DNA from: a virus
Strand: one strand, 5' to 3'
DNA: 58,941 bases
IMG/VR virus record: IMGVR_UViG_3300010354_000100
Coordinates: 1 to 58,941 of that record
In this document: piece after piece, positions 4,536 to 41,342 of the stretch
Layout: every line of letters starts with the position of its first letter
Numbering within the stretch: the first letter of the stretch is position 1
Program-made: the position numbers and the translations under genes
Notes under the pieces: model-generated
The model's database searches: none
What the model saw: the letters and a program-made list of their open reading frames with translations, nothing else
Told to the model about the DNA's origin: nothing

Positions 4536-4650
4536 GGAAATAAAAAACGAAATGTATTTATCAATCATGTTGGTATCAATTGTACAGGCAGCGGGCGCAG
4601 AAACCAACTTTTACCGGAAGAAAATTTCCTCAAGATTTTTTCACGGGAGG

Positions 4651-13745: not shown

Positions 13746-14792
13746 ATGTCCAAAGAAACCATGGAGTGGCTCAACTCCAACATTCTCGTCGGGTTCACCG
13801 ATGAGCGTGGTCATGCGTGGCACTACCGCGCCGACCTACAAGGCAACGAGCCGAACCACTACAAGGGCGCAGTCCCTACGGATGACATTCTCCGCAGACT
13901 GTTCTCGTGGAAGGCAATCAGCGCGCCAGTGTTCATCCGAGTCCCCGCGACTCTCGATGACGCGACGGGCGTTGATGACGCAGGCAATCCGTACAAGTTC
14001 ATTCAGGCAGGCAATCGGCAGGCAATCTTGCGCGATGACACGCTTGACCTAATGGAAATCTTCAAGGACGGATACCGTTCGCACCAATACGGCGAATGGC
14101 TCGTTCAGAACCTTGCGAACATCGTTGATGACGAAATCAACTTTGGCTCGGCAGGACTCTTGAAGAACGGCGCGGTCGCGTTCGTATCGTTGGAGATGCC
14201 AGAGTCGGTGGAAGTGTTGAGCGGATTCTCAGTCCGTCCGCACCTACTGGCAACGACATCGCACAACGGACAACTCGCCACGACATACAAGAGCGTTAGC
14301 ACATTCGTAGTGTGCGACAACACTCACGCTATGGCGATGGGAGAGAACACGAGTCAGTTCAAGGCTCGTCACAGCAAGAACTCCGTGATGCGGATTCAAT
14401 CCGCGCGCGACGCACTCGGCATCGTTCACAAGATGACCGATGACATCGTTGCGGAAGTTCTCGCACTCTCGTCGCACAAAGTGAGTGACGCACAGTGGGA
14501 GAAGGTTCTCACCGCGCTCGCGCCGATTCCGACGCTTGACGATGACAACGCAAACAAAGCGGCAGTGACTCGCGCGGAGAACAAGCGCGACGAACTCGTG
14601 AACCTCTACAACTACGACACGCGCGTAGCACCGTGGAAAGGTTCGGCTCTTGGGGTTCTCCAAGCGTTCAACACATACAACCACCACATCGTGGGCGCGA
14701 ATGGCAACCGCGCTGAGCGCAACATGATGAACGCGCTCATGGGCAAGACCGAGCAGTCTGACCGCAAGGTTCTAGACCTACTCGGAGTCTGA
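13746..14792 (+). CDS. DUF932 / TIGR03299-type phage-plasmid protein
   Basis: 348 aa, the largest product of the array. GFTDERGHAWHYRADLQG..HYKGAVP near the start, LRDDTLDLMEIFKDGYRSHQYGEWL, and the VVCDNTHAMAMGE core match the family found on phages and plasmids beside defence or replication genes. Biochemical role unknown. AAGAAAGGC precedes the ATG. Confidence 0.8.
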   Translation: MSKETMEWLNSNILVGFTDERGHAWHYRADLQGNEPNHYKGAVPTDDILRRLFSWKAISAPVFIRVPATLDDATGVDDAGNPYKFIQAGNRQAILRDDTLDLMEIFKDGYRSHQYGEWLVQNLANIVDDEINFGSAGLLKNGAVAFVSLEMPESVEVLSGFSVRPHLLATTSHNGQLATTYKSVSTFVVCDNTHAMAMGENTSQFKARHSKNSVMRIQSARDALGIVHKMTDDIVAEVLALSSHKVSDAQWEKVLTALAPIPTLDDDNANKAAVTRAENKRDELVNLYNYDTRVAPWKGSALGVLQAFNTYNHHIVGANGNRAERNMMNALMGKTEQSDRKVLDLLGV

Positions 14793-14909: not shown

Positions 14910-14941
14910 CCGGCCGACCACAAAAGAAATCTTTCACAAGG

Positions 14942-14970
14942 TTGCGAAAGCGACCGCGATGTGATACAGT
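14942..14970 (+). promoter_or_regulatory. first tandem promoter upstream of RNA candidate
   Basis: TTGCGA, 17 bp, TACAGT. The transcript would begin with the hairpin AGGGCA-GT-TGCCCT. Confidence 0.75.
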
Positions 14971-15012
14971 ATAGGTAGGGCAGTTGCCCTGAGAATAATT
15001 ATCGCGTCCGAG

Positions 15013-15041
15013 TTGCGAAAGCGACAAAGATGTGATACACT
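15013..15041 (+). promoter_or_regulatory. second tandem promoter, drives RNA candidate
   Basis: TTGCGA, 17 bp, TACACT. Confidence 0.8.
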
Positions 15042-15047
15042 TAGAGT

Positions 15048-15275
15048 ATAAGGCAATACGAATACAGTAAGCAATTACTGACAACACATAGGAATACATC
15101 ACTTACACAAGTTGTATCACCAGCAATACTTACCGACGACCGTCCTAGGCGGTCGGCTCGTAGTCCCTTCTGCGTCGAGCCTTCCCTGTCAGTCCCTGTA
15201 ATCCGACGCAGGCGGAGTTGCTATCCGCCGAGTGTCAGTATGTGCGCGACGACGGTCGCTGTCGGTAGTTGCTTA
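15048..15275 (+). ncRNA. candidate structured non-coding RNA 1
   Basis: No ORF. A long-range helix pairs AGCAA and TACCGAC (15122-15126, 15131-15137) with GTCGGTA and TTGCT (15261-15267, 15269-15273). It encloses GACCG/CGGTC (loop TCCTAGG), GGCTCG/CGAGCC, GGCGGA/TCCGCC and GCGAC/GTCGC. A 5' hairpin CAGTAA-GCAA-TTACTG has a GNRA loop. CTGCGTC (15170) could instead pair with GACGCAG (15205), excluding the GGCTCG helix. Has its own promoters. Confidence 0.65.
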
Positions 15276-15297
15276 GTGTATCCGTATGTGATACACT
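15269..15297 (+). promoter_or_regulatory. promoter for 15319 gene
   Basis: TTGCTT, 17 bp, TACACT; the -35 box is the 3' strand of the closing helix of RNA candidate 1. Confidence 0.75.
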
Positions 15298-15318
15298 GTA
15301 AATAGAAAGGTAAACACA

Positions 15319-15495
15319 ATGACAAACCAATACCGAGGGTTCATCTCGTTCGCCACGAGCGATGCCGAGTTTGACCTCTTCAAACACAAGATAAATCGTT
15401 ACTACAACTGGTGCGGTGCTCTTCGCATTGACCCGATGGATGACGAGAACTACAACTCATTCTGCGAGGCCGACTCGGTCTTAGAGAATGCCTGA
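15319..15495 (+). CDS. small hypothetical protein
   Basis: 58 aa, AGAAAGG upstream. Acidic and aromatic (INRYYNWCGALRIDPMDDENYN). Unassigned; directly downstream of the RNA candidate. Confidence 0.6.
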   Translation: MTNQYRGFISFATSDAEFDLFKHKINRYYNWCGALRIDPMDDENYNSFCEADSVLENA

Positions 15496-30653: not shown

Positions 30654-30725
30654 GCCCAGTTAGCACAGTGGTAGTGCATCCGCCTTGTAAGCGGAAGGTC
30701 CTCAGTTCAATCCTGAGACTGGGCT
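30654..30725 (+). tRNA. tRNA-Thr(TGT)
   Basis: 72-nt cloverleaf: acceptor GCCCAGT/ACTGGGC, D stem GCAC/GTGC, anticodon stem TCCGC/GCGGA with loop CTTGTAA (anticodon TGT), T stem CTCAG/CTGAG with TTCAATC. No encoded CCA. It would read ACA codons. Confidence 0.92.
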
Positions 30726-37927: not shown

Positions 37928-37942
37928 GCATTGGTAATCTTT

Positions 37943-38683
37943 ATGGAACAAGAACAAGAGAGGAAATCCTGGATGATAGTCGTAGCGACTACTATCCACG
38001 CCTACGTCATGGACAACCCAGACCACTGGGGCTCGTGGATGAAAAACGCCGAAAAGGTCAAAGCCGAATATGCAAAATTCGGAGACTGGGCTGGAGTCCA
38101 GTACTTTGCAGCAATACAAATGGACTCACGTGGACTGGAGCCATTCAAGCCATTTTTGGAAAGGCTCACCGAAATCGGTGGCGGCTTTTGGACATACACG
38201 CTTGATGATGGCAGAACTCAAGTAACCACAAAAAACAGAATCAGGCACATTGTTGCCGGTCAAAACCTTTGCAATGACTTTTCAATGTCAACTCACGGAT
38301 GCACACACATGCTCTTCATGGCTGCTGATTGCATGCCGCCAGACGACATTCTGCCCAAGATGCTGGAGATGGACCATCCGCTTTGCGCACCATACATTCG
38401 CACATACAACCTTCGCGGAACCAAGATTGACAAATACCCATTTCCAGTTGAGGATGCGATGGCTTCGGCGGCGGCAATTTTCATGGATAGACGAGTTTTT
38501 TCTTCCATCAGATGGCGTTGGGATTTTGACAAAAACATGTCCGATGACCCATGTTTCCACCACGACGCACTTCACTACCTGGGAATACCGACATACGTCC
38601 GTCACGACTGCATTGCCAGACATTTTCCAGAATCGGTCGGCGCAATTGAGACTCGCGGACATAACATGATTGTTCACAGATGA
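37943..38683 (+). CDS. glycosyltransferase-like protein (GT-A)
   Basis: 246 aa from ATG 37943. HMLFMAADCMPPDDILPKML corresponds to the strand and acidic motif of GT-A enzymes, and DPCFHHDALHYLGIPTYV to the acceptor side. Probably adds a sugar to a virion or host glycan. First of three overlapping genes. Confidence 0.6.
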   Translation: MEQEQERKSWMIVVATTIHAYVMDNPDHWGSWMKNAEKVKAEYAKFGDWAGVQYFAAIQMDSRGLEPFKPFLERLTEIGGGFWTYTLDDGRTQVTTKNRIRHIVAGQNLCNDFSMSTHGCTHMLFMAADCMPPDDILPKMLEMDHPLCAPYIRTYNLRGTKIDKYPFPVEDAMASAAAIFMDRRVFSSIRWRWDFDKNMSDDPCFHHDALHYLGIPTYVRHDCIARHFPESVGAIETRGHNMIVHR

Positions 38684-39240
38684 TTAAGCAACTAAGACCA
38701 TTCCACGACAGCGAGGCGCTTGCCAGGATTTACGCAAAGCCTCATGACCACAGGATTTATGGACGTGGACACCATGTCCGAGTTGAGGTAACCAAGAACA
38801 TCGTTCGCGATGCGATTTCAATGTCAAGAGGGAGCAGTATTGCCGACCTGAGTTGCGGAAACGGGGACATAGTTCGCTCAATGGGTTTGCAAAATATGTT
38901 TCTTGGTGACTATGCGCCTGGCTACGAGTTGGTCGGACCAATCGACAAGACGATAATTCAAATTCCGAAAGTCCACGTTTATGTATGTTCTGAATCGTTG
39001 GAACACGTCGAAGACCCTTTGCAAATCCTGAAACTGGTGCGTGACAAGTCCAAGTATCTTGTTCTTTCTACGCCAATCGAAAACTGGGAAGACACGAACG
39101 AAGAGCACTATTGGTCGTGGGACCGAGAAGGGATTGAAGAGTTGTTTTCTCAGTCTGGCTGGAAGCCCGACATGTTTCTTTTCCTCGACACAACAGTTTT
39201 TGGAGAGCCATACAAGTACGGAATTTGGGTCTGTAAGTGA
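38680..39240 (+). CDS. class I SAM-dependent methyltransferase
   Basis: 186 aa, ATGA overlap. IADLSCGNGDIV is motif I for S-adenosylmethionine and VCSESLEHVEDP is the motif II/III region. Likely methylates a sugar or nucleotide-sugar, given its neighbours. Confidence 0.75.
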   Translation: MIKQLRPFHDSEALARIYAKPHDHRIYGRGHHVRVEVTKNIVRDAISMSRGSSIADLSCGNGDIVRSMGLQNMFLGDYAPGYELVGPIDKTIIQIPKVHVYVCSESLEHVEDPLQILKLVRDKSKYLVLSTPIENWEDTNEEHYWSWDREGIEELFSQSGWKPDMFLFLDTTVFGEPYKYGIWVCK

Positions 39241-40103
39241 AGATTCTGATAACCGGCGATGCCGGTTTTGTCGGTGGATACTTTCGCAAGTCCCTTGAAG
39301 GTCACGACATTGTCGGAGTGGACATCAAGAATGGTCTTGATGCCAGGAAATTCTTTGCTGAAGATGACACCAAATTTGACCTAGTCGTGCATCTCGCTGC
39401 CATAGTTGGAGGTCGTGCAACAATCGAGGGAGCACCTCTTTCTGTCGCTGTCGATTTAGCAATCGACTCAGAGTTATTCCAATGGGCTTTGCGAACTCGC
39501 CCAGGAAGAATTATTTACTACTCGTCATCCGCTGCTTACCCAATACACCTTCAGGCTGCTGGAAGCACGCACAGGTTGAAGGAGTCCGACATAGACCTTT
39601 CAGACATAAAGTCTCCTGACTACACATACGGGTGGGCAAAACTAACTGGAGAAATGCTCGCCAGTTATGCAGAAAAAGAAGGATTGAGAGTTCATGTATT
39701 TAGGCCATTCTCTGGATACGGAGAAGACCAATCATTGGACTATCCGTTTCCATCGTTCATCATGCGAGGAGTGCAAAGGCAGGACCCATTCCTTATTTGG
39801 GGTACTGGAAAACAAACGCGGGATTTCATGCACATGGAAGATGTTGTCGCAGCAACGCTGGAAGCAGTCAAGCAAGACGTTCCCGGCCCAGTGAATCTTG
39901 GGCTCGGAAGGGCCACCTCGTTCAATGAACTTGCTGAAATAGTCACCAAGCAGTGCGGATATTTCCCTTTCTACGAAAGAAAACTTGGAGCCCCAGAGGG
40001 AGTTCAATATCGGGTATGTGACCCTACAAAAATGCTTTCTTTCTATAAGCCAAAAATAACTTTAGAAGAAGGCGTATCAAGAGCAATTAAATATCTTTCA
40101 TGA
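39237..40103 (+). CDS. NAD-dependent epimerase/dehydratase
   Basis: 288 aa, GTG overlapping the previous stop. TGDAGFVGGY is the Rossmann glycine motif (residues 6-15), SSSAAYP holds the catalytic Ser, and YGWAK the Tyr-Lys pair. Extended SDR family, making or interconverting nucleotide sugars. Confidence 0.88.
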   Translation: MKILITGDAGFVGGYFRKSLEGHDIVGVDIKNGLDARKFFAEDDTKFDLVVHLAAIVGGRATIEGAPLSVAVDLAIDSELFQWALRTRPGRIIYYSSSAAYPIHLQAAGSTHRLKESDIDLSDIKSPDYTYGWAKLTGEMLASYAEKEGLRVHVFRPFSGYGEDQSLDYPFPSFIMRGVQRQDPFLIWGTGKQTRDFMHMEDVVAATLEAVKQDVPGPVNLGLGRATSFNELAEIVTKQCGYFPFYERKLGAPEGVQYRVCDPTKMLSFYKPKITLEEGVSRAIKYLS

Positions 40104-40163: not shown

Positions 40164-41342
40164 ATGCTCAAATTCATCGTTTCACTGTTCGTCTCTGCCG
40201 CATCCCTGATGTCGCAGCCGTTGCCAAACGACAACGGGTACCGTCCCGCATGGGGTCTTGACAGAATTGACCAACGTCAATCAACGCTCAATGACAACTA
40301 CACCTACAACCTGACCGGAGAGGGAGTCAACGTTTACGTTTTTGACTCTGGAATTACTTCCGGTCACGACGATTTTGAAGGGCGAGTAGATGCGGGCTTC
40401 AGTGTCATAACCGACGGATTAGGAACAGAGGACTGCGCAGGACACGGCACGCACACGGCAAGTCTCGTTGGTGGCAAGACCTACGGGGTGGCAAAGAAAG
40501 TCAGACTGATTCCCGTGCGTGTTCTGAATTGCAACAACAGCAACTCCTCAAGTGCAACGTTGTACCCGGCAATCGATTGGATTATTGAACACCACAAGCC
40601 AGCAACTCCGGCAGTGGTCAACATGAGTGTCGGCATGCCAAAATCTGAGGCGTTCAACGAGGCAGTCCGCAGGCTCATTGCCGACGGTCTCATCGTCGTT
40701 GGTGCCGCTGGTAATCAATCCAAAGATGCGTGCCTGTATTCCCCCGCTTCGGAGCCTTCAATCATTTCTGTTGGCGGAACAGACAAAACGGACCTCCGCG
40801 GGACTCAATCAAACTTCGGCTCATGCGTTGATTTGTTTGCTCCCGGCTGGGACCTTGTAGGCGCATGGACTGGAGGTGCATCCGTATACCGCTCAAGCAG
40901 CGGCACCTCAAATGCGGCACCAATCGTCAGCGGAATTGCTGCGCTTATGCTGCAAGAAAATCCAACACTCACCCAGTCCCAGGTAGAGGCAAATCTCAAG
41001 TCAACTGCCACAGCGGGAGCACTGTTCAACATTGGCGCAGGGAGTCCCAACCTTCTCGCCTACTCGCATTTTGCTGCTCAGCAAGTTGTACCAACGACGA
41101 CAACGATTGTCACGACGACAACGACTGTTCCAGTTGCCCCTGTTCCAACCCCGGTCGTAACAACGACTACGGTCGTTCAGAACGTCACAACCACCACCGC
41201 TGCACCACAACCGCAACAGTTGGAACTGTCCTGTTCGAATCCAGCAGAACGGACGCGCTTCTACGGCGTTCCCTACGTTTGCGTGAACACCGGCAACCAG
41301 TTGATGTGGATTCCCCAGCGCTATTCGCCAGGACGTCCATAA
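40164..41342 (+). CDS. secreted subtilisin-like serine protease (S8)
   Basis: 392 aa. Signal peptide (MLKFIVSLFVSAASLMSQP), catalytic D61 (VFDSG), H94 (GHGTHTA), oxyanion N184 and S249 (GTSNAAP). A Thr/Pro/Val linker (about 310-350) precedes a small Cys-containing C-terminal domain. All catalytic residues are intact. Ends one base from the convergent RNR gene. Rare in phages; could degrade host surface proteins or be a virion protease. Confidence 0.88.
   Translation: MLKFIVSLFVSAASLMSQPLPNDNGYRPAWGLDRIDQRQSTLNDNYTYNLTGEGVNVYVFDSGITSGHDDFEGRVDAGFSVITDGLGTEDCAGHGTHTASLVGGKTYGVAKKVRLIPVRVLNCNNSNSSSATLYPAIDWIIEHHKPATPAVVNMSVGMPKSEAFNEAVRRLIADGLIVVGAAGNQSKDACLYSPASEPSIISVGGTDKTDLRGTQSNFGSCVDLFAPGWDLVGAWTGGASVYRSSSGTSNAAPIVSGIAALMLQENPTLTQSQVEANLKSTATAGALFNIGAGSPNLLAYSHFAAQQVVPTTTTIVTTTTTVPVAPVPTPVVTTTTVVQNVTTTTAAPQPQQLELSCSNPAERTRFYGVPYVCVNTGNQLMWIPQRYSPGRP

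Follow-up and report, generated by a model that had tools for sequence, protein, structure and literature searches.

A conserved structured RNA gene in an uncultivated actinobacteriophage-like clade, with a palindromic loop that may mediate dimerization

Comparative analysis of a 58,941-base IMG/VR virus record (hereafter, the window) showed that it carries a predicted plus-strand RNA of about 235–260 nt, which is preceded by a promoter and whose fold is conserved in 10 records from a single clade of uncultivated phages. The RNA is present in the window as a single copy at the following position.

~15046..15288, plus strand: structured RNA (5′ end placed from the promoter, 3′ end approximate)

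Taken alone, the claim that this is a stand-alone, conserved structured RNA is very probably correct, and the RNA family is real, conserved, and apparently undescribed. The fuller statement, that it is a stand-alone phage RNA gene whose product dimerizes via the palindromic loop of a hairpin designated Pk, falls a little short of an even call.

The RNA lies between a gene encoding a DUF932 protein (positions 13746–14792; Pfam PF06067, E-value 1.6e−34) and a small ORF starting at position 15320, among many small genes. The best cultured matches of the DUF932 protein, at about 40–45%, were found in Rhodococcus and Gordonia phages, and the terminase and portal proteins of the window had distant matches to known phages, many of them actinophages. 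Because all three proteins match known phages only distantly, the virus of the window appears to be uncultivated and actinobacteriophage-like. The initial annotation of this stretch, all of whose quoted sequence letters were present, had proposed a structured, non-coding RNA here. Folding supported this proposal: the region 15040–15285 had a predicted energy of −94.9 kcal/mol, compared with −67.8 ± 4.3 kcal/mol for 200 dinucleotide shuffles (z = −6.25), none of which folded as well. On folding energy, the result is thus clearly opposite to the one that the initial annotation had said would count against the RNA. Likewise, no plus-strand ORF of at least 60 aa was found inside the RNA in the window. 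The terminator scan detected no intrinsic terminator on the plus strand, so the 3′ end given above is approximate. Because folding statistics alone do not indicate which helices are real, homologs were sought.

A blastn search of the RNA against 50,697 phage records gave no match. Five near relatives (L002–L006) were reached via DUF932, and a sequence pattern derived from the RNA recovered the same five records. A covariance model built from five sequences (R1) was run on 46 whole records to which terminase or DUF932 had led, and it identified three further, distant homologs in G022, G021, and G040 (E-value about 1e−23). The model was rebuilt to include these homologs (R2) and searched against 54 whole records, eight of which were cultured actinophages, and one additional homolog was found in G037 (E-value 6.4e−14; this copy is designated L163). 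There was no convincing R2 match in 48 of the 54 whole records, many of which are short fragments, nor in any of the eight cultured actinophages, and R2 had no match in a negative control of 62 unrelated loci (514,682 bases). With the window included, the RNA was present in 10 records, all of them from uncultivated phages. As L004 repeats L003, with an identical score and location, the counts were made on the other nine sequences. Identity to the window was 97% for L005, 62–64% for L002, L003, and L006, 54–56% for L072–L074, and 47% for L163.

Several weaker candidates were not accepted, namely G013 with R1 (E-value 0.8), G028 (E-value 0.03) and W04 Orchid (E-values 0.16 and 0.76) with R2, second places in G022 and G004 with R2, and reverse-strand model matches at the RNA locus, which reflect its inverted repeat. 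A DNA-pattern search of genome contigs gave 14 matches that were attributed to chance, neither model supporting any of them (best R1 E-value 0.24; no R2 match at E-value ≤1). Of 16 viral stretches that matched the pattern, eight were in family records (L008–L012, L081, L083, and L088), and the other eight had no convincing model match. A window-only pattern of the Pk hairpin had no matches, and a pattern of its 5′ part matched the L005 record only.

The conserved structure is well supported by the homologs. It consists of the following elements.

15068..15083, plus strand: 5′ strand of the closing helix P1, core (flanking pairs extend to ~15056)
15085..15090, plus strand: 5′ strand of P2, CACAUA (partner 15239–15244)
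15122..15126, plus strand: AGCAA, possible pseudoknot partner of UUGCU at 15218–15222 in the P4 loop
15138..15154, plus strand: Pk hairpin (stem GACCG/CGGUC, loop UCCUAGG at 15143–15149)
15155..15181, plus strand: P6 hairpin, GGCUCG/CGAGCC (C-rich loop UAGUCCCUUCUGCGU; pyrimidine motif of the relatives, CUCCCUCCUGCG)
15205..15236, plus strand: P4, two-part hairpin (15205–15209/15232–15236 and 15212–15216/15224–15228)
15239..15244, plus strand: 3′ strand of P2, UAUGUG (partner 15085–15090)
15246..15259, plus strand: P5 hairpin, GCGAC-GACG-GUCGC, adjoining the 3′ strand of P1
15260..15275, plus strand: 3′ strand of P1, core (flanking pairs extend past 15281)

P1 is thus a long helix whose inner end directly adjoins P5; P2 comes next, and then a core with Pk and P6, to which P4 is added in the near relatives. 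In the nine-sequence alignment (A7), which was fitted to R2 and hence leans toward the R2 structure, 98.0% of 295 pair cells were standard pairs, compared with 79.1% after shuffling and 29–51% in slid controls. Covariation among homologs, which the initial annotation had named as a check, was found in the same nine sequences: two-sided changes occurred in 19 of the 34 pairs, compared with 9.6 after shuffling, and none of 500 shuffles reached any of five pairing measures. Despite the leaning of A7, pairing in the slid controls was much lower, and the homolog with 47% identity retained P1, P5, and Pk with changed letters. A7 misplaces the Pk hairpin in L003 and L006, where it was read by eye.

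Among the individual helices, P1 had 16 contiguous pairs in all five sequences aligned, five of them with two-sided change, and a pairing probability of 0.85–1.00. Across the nine sequences, P2 was paired in 96.3% of cells, with two-sided change in four of six pairs, and P5 was paired in 100% of cells, with two-sided change in four of five. In P4, seven of 10 pairs showed two-sided change among five sequences (inner part, 4/5; outer part, 3/5). In the P4 loop, the window has GUUGCUA (15217–15223), and the four near relatives aligned with it have CUUGCUA; P4 was not recognizable in the same form in L072–L074 and L163. The pairs of P6 were all formed in the window and L005 (6/6) and partly in L003 and L006 (4/6) and in L002 (3/6). 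Five pairs between AGCAA (AGCRA in the family) and UUGCU were possible in all five sequences, none with two-sided change, and this potential pseudoknot is suggestive only. A further helix, ACAAC/GUUGU (15081–15085 with 15111–15115), was considered and rejected; it was possible in all five near sequences and lost in L072–L074.

These helices differ in part from those drawn in the initial annotation, which had closed the RNA with AGCAA+TACCGAC/GTCGGTA+TTGCT (15122–15126 and 15131–15137 with 15261–15273). The 3′ strand of that helix was correctly placed, but its 5′ strand was not, the conserved partner being 15068–15083, approximately 54 nt further upstream. The helix as originally drawn had an ensemble probability of 0.00, forcing it cost 17 kcal/mol (−80.2 versus −97.1 kcal/mol), and five of its 10 lettered pairs were broken in L003 and four of 10 in L006. 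Two mutually exclusive inner helices had also been proposed. One of these, GGCTCG/CGAGCC, survives as P6 (probability 0.40–1.00, partly kept in relatives), but the other, CTGCGTC/GACGCAG, had a probability of 0.00 and was fully paired only in the window among five aligned sequences; its GACGC strand pairs instead with 15232–15236 in a conserved helix. Because this alternative helix is neither stable nor conserved, and because the downstream gene differs between homologs so that there is no gene-specific downstream context, the idea that the RNA switches between two states was not supported.

The strand on which the structure acts was examined in the same sequences. The folding z-score was −2.0 to −7.35 in eight sequences and −4.1 in the ninth, and in all nine, the plus strand had a lower z-score than the reverse strand. 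Furthermore, the nine-sequence pair table contained 29 G–U pair cells on the plus strand, and two pairs were U–G, one in all nine sequences and the other in seven of them. Because such G–U pairs are strand specific, they point to a plus-strand RNA rather than a DNA hairpin.

The promoters at the locus are as follows.

14942..14970, plus strand: outer of the two tandem promoters, TTGCGA-17 nt-TACAGT (extended −10, TGTGATACA)
15013..15041, plus strand: inner promoter of the RNA, TTGCGA-17 nt-TACACT
15269..15297, plus strand: next gene's promoter, TTGCTT-17 nt-TACACT, which overlaps the 3′ strand of P1

The two tandem promoters had already been noted in the initial annotation, and they belong to a promoter family (TTGnnA-17-TAnAnT) that matches the window 39 times, where 0.9 matches would be expected; almost all of these sites are on the plus strand between 4.5 and 27 kb, and TGTGATACA itself occurs 25 times in the window against 0.2 expected. 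A generic sigma-70 scan listed neither of the two. From the inner promoter, transcription would be expected to start near 15046–15050, and we infer that transcription of the RNA accompanies that of the small genes around it, which bear the same promoter type. In all nine homologs, a TTGnnn-17-TAnAnT promoter was located 36–53 nt before the aligned RNA segment, and a second upstream promoter was also found in L002, L005, and L006. The separate promoter of the next gene was likewise borne out, its −35 element TTGCTT (15269–15274) being part of the P1 3′ strand. Such an own promoter of the next gene was present in eight of the nine homologs, with its −35 inside the 3′ strand of P1 (core or outer part) in six of nine.

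The neighboring genes were less constant. DUF932 was immediately 5′ of the RNA in six records (the window and L002–L006) and approximately 2.2 kb upstream in three, and it was not detected in the 38-kb fragment G037. In L002–L006, about 230 nt after DUF932 were conserved and the sequence beyond that was not. The gene downstream of the RNA was a different gene in different homologs, and a comparison across the homologs showed no particular gene, or class of genes, to be consistently linked to the RNA on that side. The closed ORFs within the RNA were 14–52 aa in length, and their places differed between homolog groups. Because a promoter precedes the RNA in all nine sequences while the downstream gene varies, the locus is best read as a stand-alone RNA gene.

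Two observations on the promoters were made in passing. An array of TTGnnA-17-TGTGATACAcT promoters extends over window positions 4551–27315 before many small genes, with nearly one promoter per gene. In addition, a conserved word of the RNA, GUUGUAUCAC (window positions 15111–15120), is complementary to the phage promoter word GTGATACA; a link between the two was considered and set aside, as the match is lost in the distant homologs L072–L074.

As to how the RNA may work, we propose that P1 and the adjoining P5 would form a rod holding an open multi-branch core, and that two copies of the RNA would join via the palindromic Pk loop, which is CCUAGG in most sequences and CCGCGG in one lineage. 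The working form would then be a homodimer or a higher homo-oligomer, and the C-rich loop beside Pk could be the face that meets a partner, either RNA or protein. The Pk loop UCCUAGG was identical in the window, L002, L005, L072–L074, and L163, on stems that differed under the same loop (GACCG, UAAGUU, GACUG, ACUU, and AAAAAC). In L003 and L006, the loop was CCGCGG, which is another palindrome; a palindromic Pk loop was thus present in all nine sequences in the form of two palindromes. The predicted energies of the 6-bp self-duplexes were −8.0 kcal/mol for CCUAGG and −10.7 kcal/mol for CCGCGG in a model without loop strain. In a study of OLE, ROOL, and GOLLD, a palindrome-preserving change at adjacent loop positions was taken to support self-kissing loops (available portion of PMC12286853). 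Because the self-kissing loops of OLE and GOLLD were argued from the same kind of evidence, a homodimer or oligomer is favored here, and homodimerization via Pk is the best, as yet unproven, mechanism. Some findings count against a dimer. The switch of palindrome is one event only, and a double change of the two central letters would be palindromic by chance in about 1 in 3 cases. In the monomer model, U–G and C–G pairs close inside the Pk loop to leave a CUA triloop, and UCCUAGG may therefore simply cap the hairpin in a conserved way or be bound by a protein. The Pk stem in L003 and L006 has only three to four pairs.

Among the rivals to homodimerization, the one with the most support is a trans-acting antisense-type sRNA whose C-rich P6 loop would pair with the Shine-Dalgarno sequences of host or phage mRNAs and alter their translation, although we consider it unlikely. 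The C-rich motif was present in all nine sequences and mostly unpaired in seven of them (mean 0.60–0.77, against a whole-RNA mean of 0.32–0.36), but it was predicted to be mostly paired in L003 (0.32) and L074 (0.37). Similarly, CCCU/CCUC-type tetramers exceeded dinucleotide shuffles in four of nine sequences (L072–L074 and L163; 2–8 of 500 shuffles as high), whereas the five near relatives showed no clear excess (31–157 of 500 as high). When the relatives' motif CUCCCUCCUGCG was compared with 22 phage start regions, only two of 200 of its own shuffles paired as well, but for the window's variant GUCCCUUCUGCG, 67 of 200 shuffles were as good. Moreover, an antisense-type sRNA would not need such long covarying P1, P4, and P5 helices. 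Loop sequences that stay strongly conserved while their stems vary, as in Pk and P4, are also what protein sites look like, and the RNA might then be a monomeric scaffold for a phage or host protein, with UCCUAGG and the C-rich loop as the protein contacts. No neighboring gene is conserved in all homologs, although the protein may be encoded elsewhere or by the host, and we judge a scaffold to be improbable to a similar degree.

The remaining alternatives are less probable still. The absence of a terminator before the next gene would allow read-through, as in a riboswitch, attenuator, or antitermination RNA acting in cis on the next transcript, but that gene has its own promoter in eight of nine homologs and differs in identity between them, and the proposed mutually exclusive switch helices are not conserved; such a role is quite improbable. 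P1 is an inverted repeat, and it might be asked whether the locus is a DNA-level element (MITE, cruciform, or origin) with no RNA at all. Its single copy in the window's record, the strand-specific G–U pairs, the better folding of the plus strand, and the promoter directly upstream in nine of nine sequences make this highly improbable. Retron ncRNAs have a long closing helix with inner hairpins, an outline that the present RNA resembles. Nevertheless, neither RVT_1 nor a TnpB/Cas12f-type zinc domain above the cut-off was found in any of the 10 records, some of which are incomplete, and a retron- or OMEGA-type RNA that guides a nuclease or serves a reverse transcriptase as template is the least probable reading of all.

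The RNA was also compared with known systems. In Rfam 15, only a tRNA (30654–30725) reached the gathering score in the window, and there were no matches in L002, L003, L005, L006, L072, L074, and L163; at E-value ≤5, the region 14930–15330 had four matches, all below gathering. This single tRNA of the window lies 15 kb from the RNA. The small packaging RNA (pRNA) of phage phi29 oligomerizes by loop–loop pairing. The contact is between two different loops, and pRNA works in a phi29-type motor, whereas the phage here has a common large-subunit-type terminase and its RNA has no Rfam match. In the available portion of PMC12286853, phi29 pRNA is named as a phage RNA homomer. The covariance models of ROOL, GOLLD, and OLE had no match in the Rfam scans, their presence in the Rfam library being taken from the use of Rfam profiles in the same portion of PMC12286853. 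ROOL and GOLLD, ornate RNAs of phages and prophages (PMC12286853), are like the RNA described here in being stand-alone, strongly covarying phage RNAs with self-complementary loops; in one such loop of GOLLD, paired changes preserve the palindrome. Unlike these two, which are roughly 600–800 nt or more, the RNA described here is only ~235–260 nt in length, is not beside a tRNA island, and has no Rfam match. The change of its loop from CCUAGG to CCGCGG is comparable to the palindrome-preserving change of GGCC to GAUC or AGCU in the OLE loop, by which the OLE homodimer is supported (PMC12286853); OLE, in contrast, is of bacterial origin, is larger, and has known protein partners, and the present RNA has no Rfam match. 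It also resembles c4 RNA and other phage-borne regulatory sRNAs (reviewed in PMC12197685) in being phage encoded without a protein product, but c4-type RNAs act as antisense RNAs, a complementarity of that kind could not be established for the present RNA, and there is no Rfam match. No description of such an RNA was found in the accessible portions of the open-licence full-text literature, including PMC7567579, PMC12197685, and PMC2864571. It is possible, although somewhat doubtful, that the RNA is a compact (~240 nt) self-assembling phage RNA and a small, undescribed counterpart of ROOL, GOLLD, and OLE in an actinobacteriophage-like clade.

The best-known structured phage RNAs of unexplained role are large and difficult to dissect. 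By its small size, an RNA with a clear covariation model, a dimer hypothesis that concerns one loop, and a recognizable promoter makes a tractable case. Furthermore, Rfam misses structured RNAs of uncultivated phage clades, and R1 and R2 are usable to seek more of them.

A second small RNA candidate, of approximately 80 nt, was noted in the distant group at L072:1361–1438 (plus strand) and at the same place in L073 and L074, where it adjoins the upstream side of the promoter of the main RNA. Its closing helix has three two-sided changes among three sequences, and its conserved core is AACATAGAGG..CAAGTCGGTTGTAG. This candidate had no Rfam match, and among the loci examined, its core word occurred only in the L072, L073, and L074 records. 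Elsewhere in the window, three ORFs were noted by eye. The ORF at 40164–41342 resembles a secreted subtilisin-type serine protease, which is unusual in a phage; its DSG, HGTH, and GTSNAAP motifs were recognized by eye, with no tool. The ORF at 39237–40103 looks like a nucleotide-sugar epimerase, and near it, the ORF at 37931–38683 is glycosyltransferase-like.
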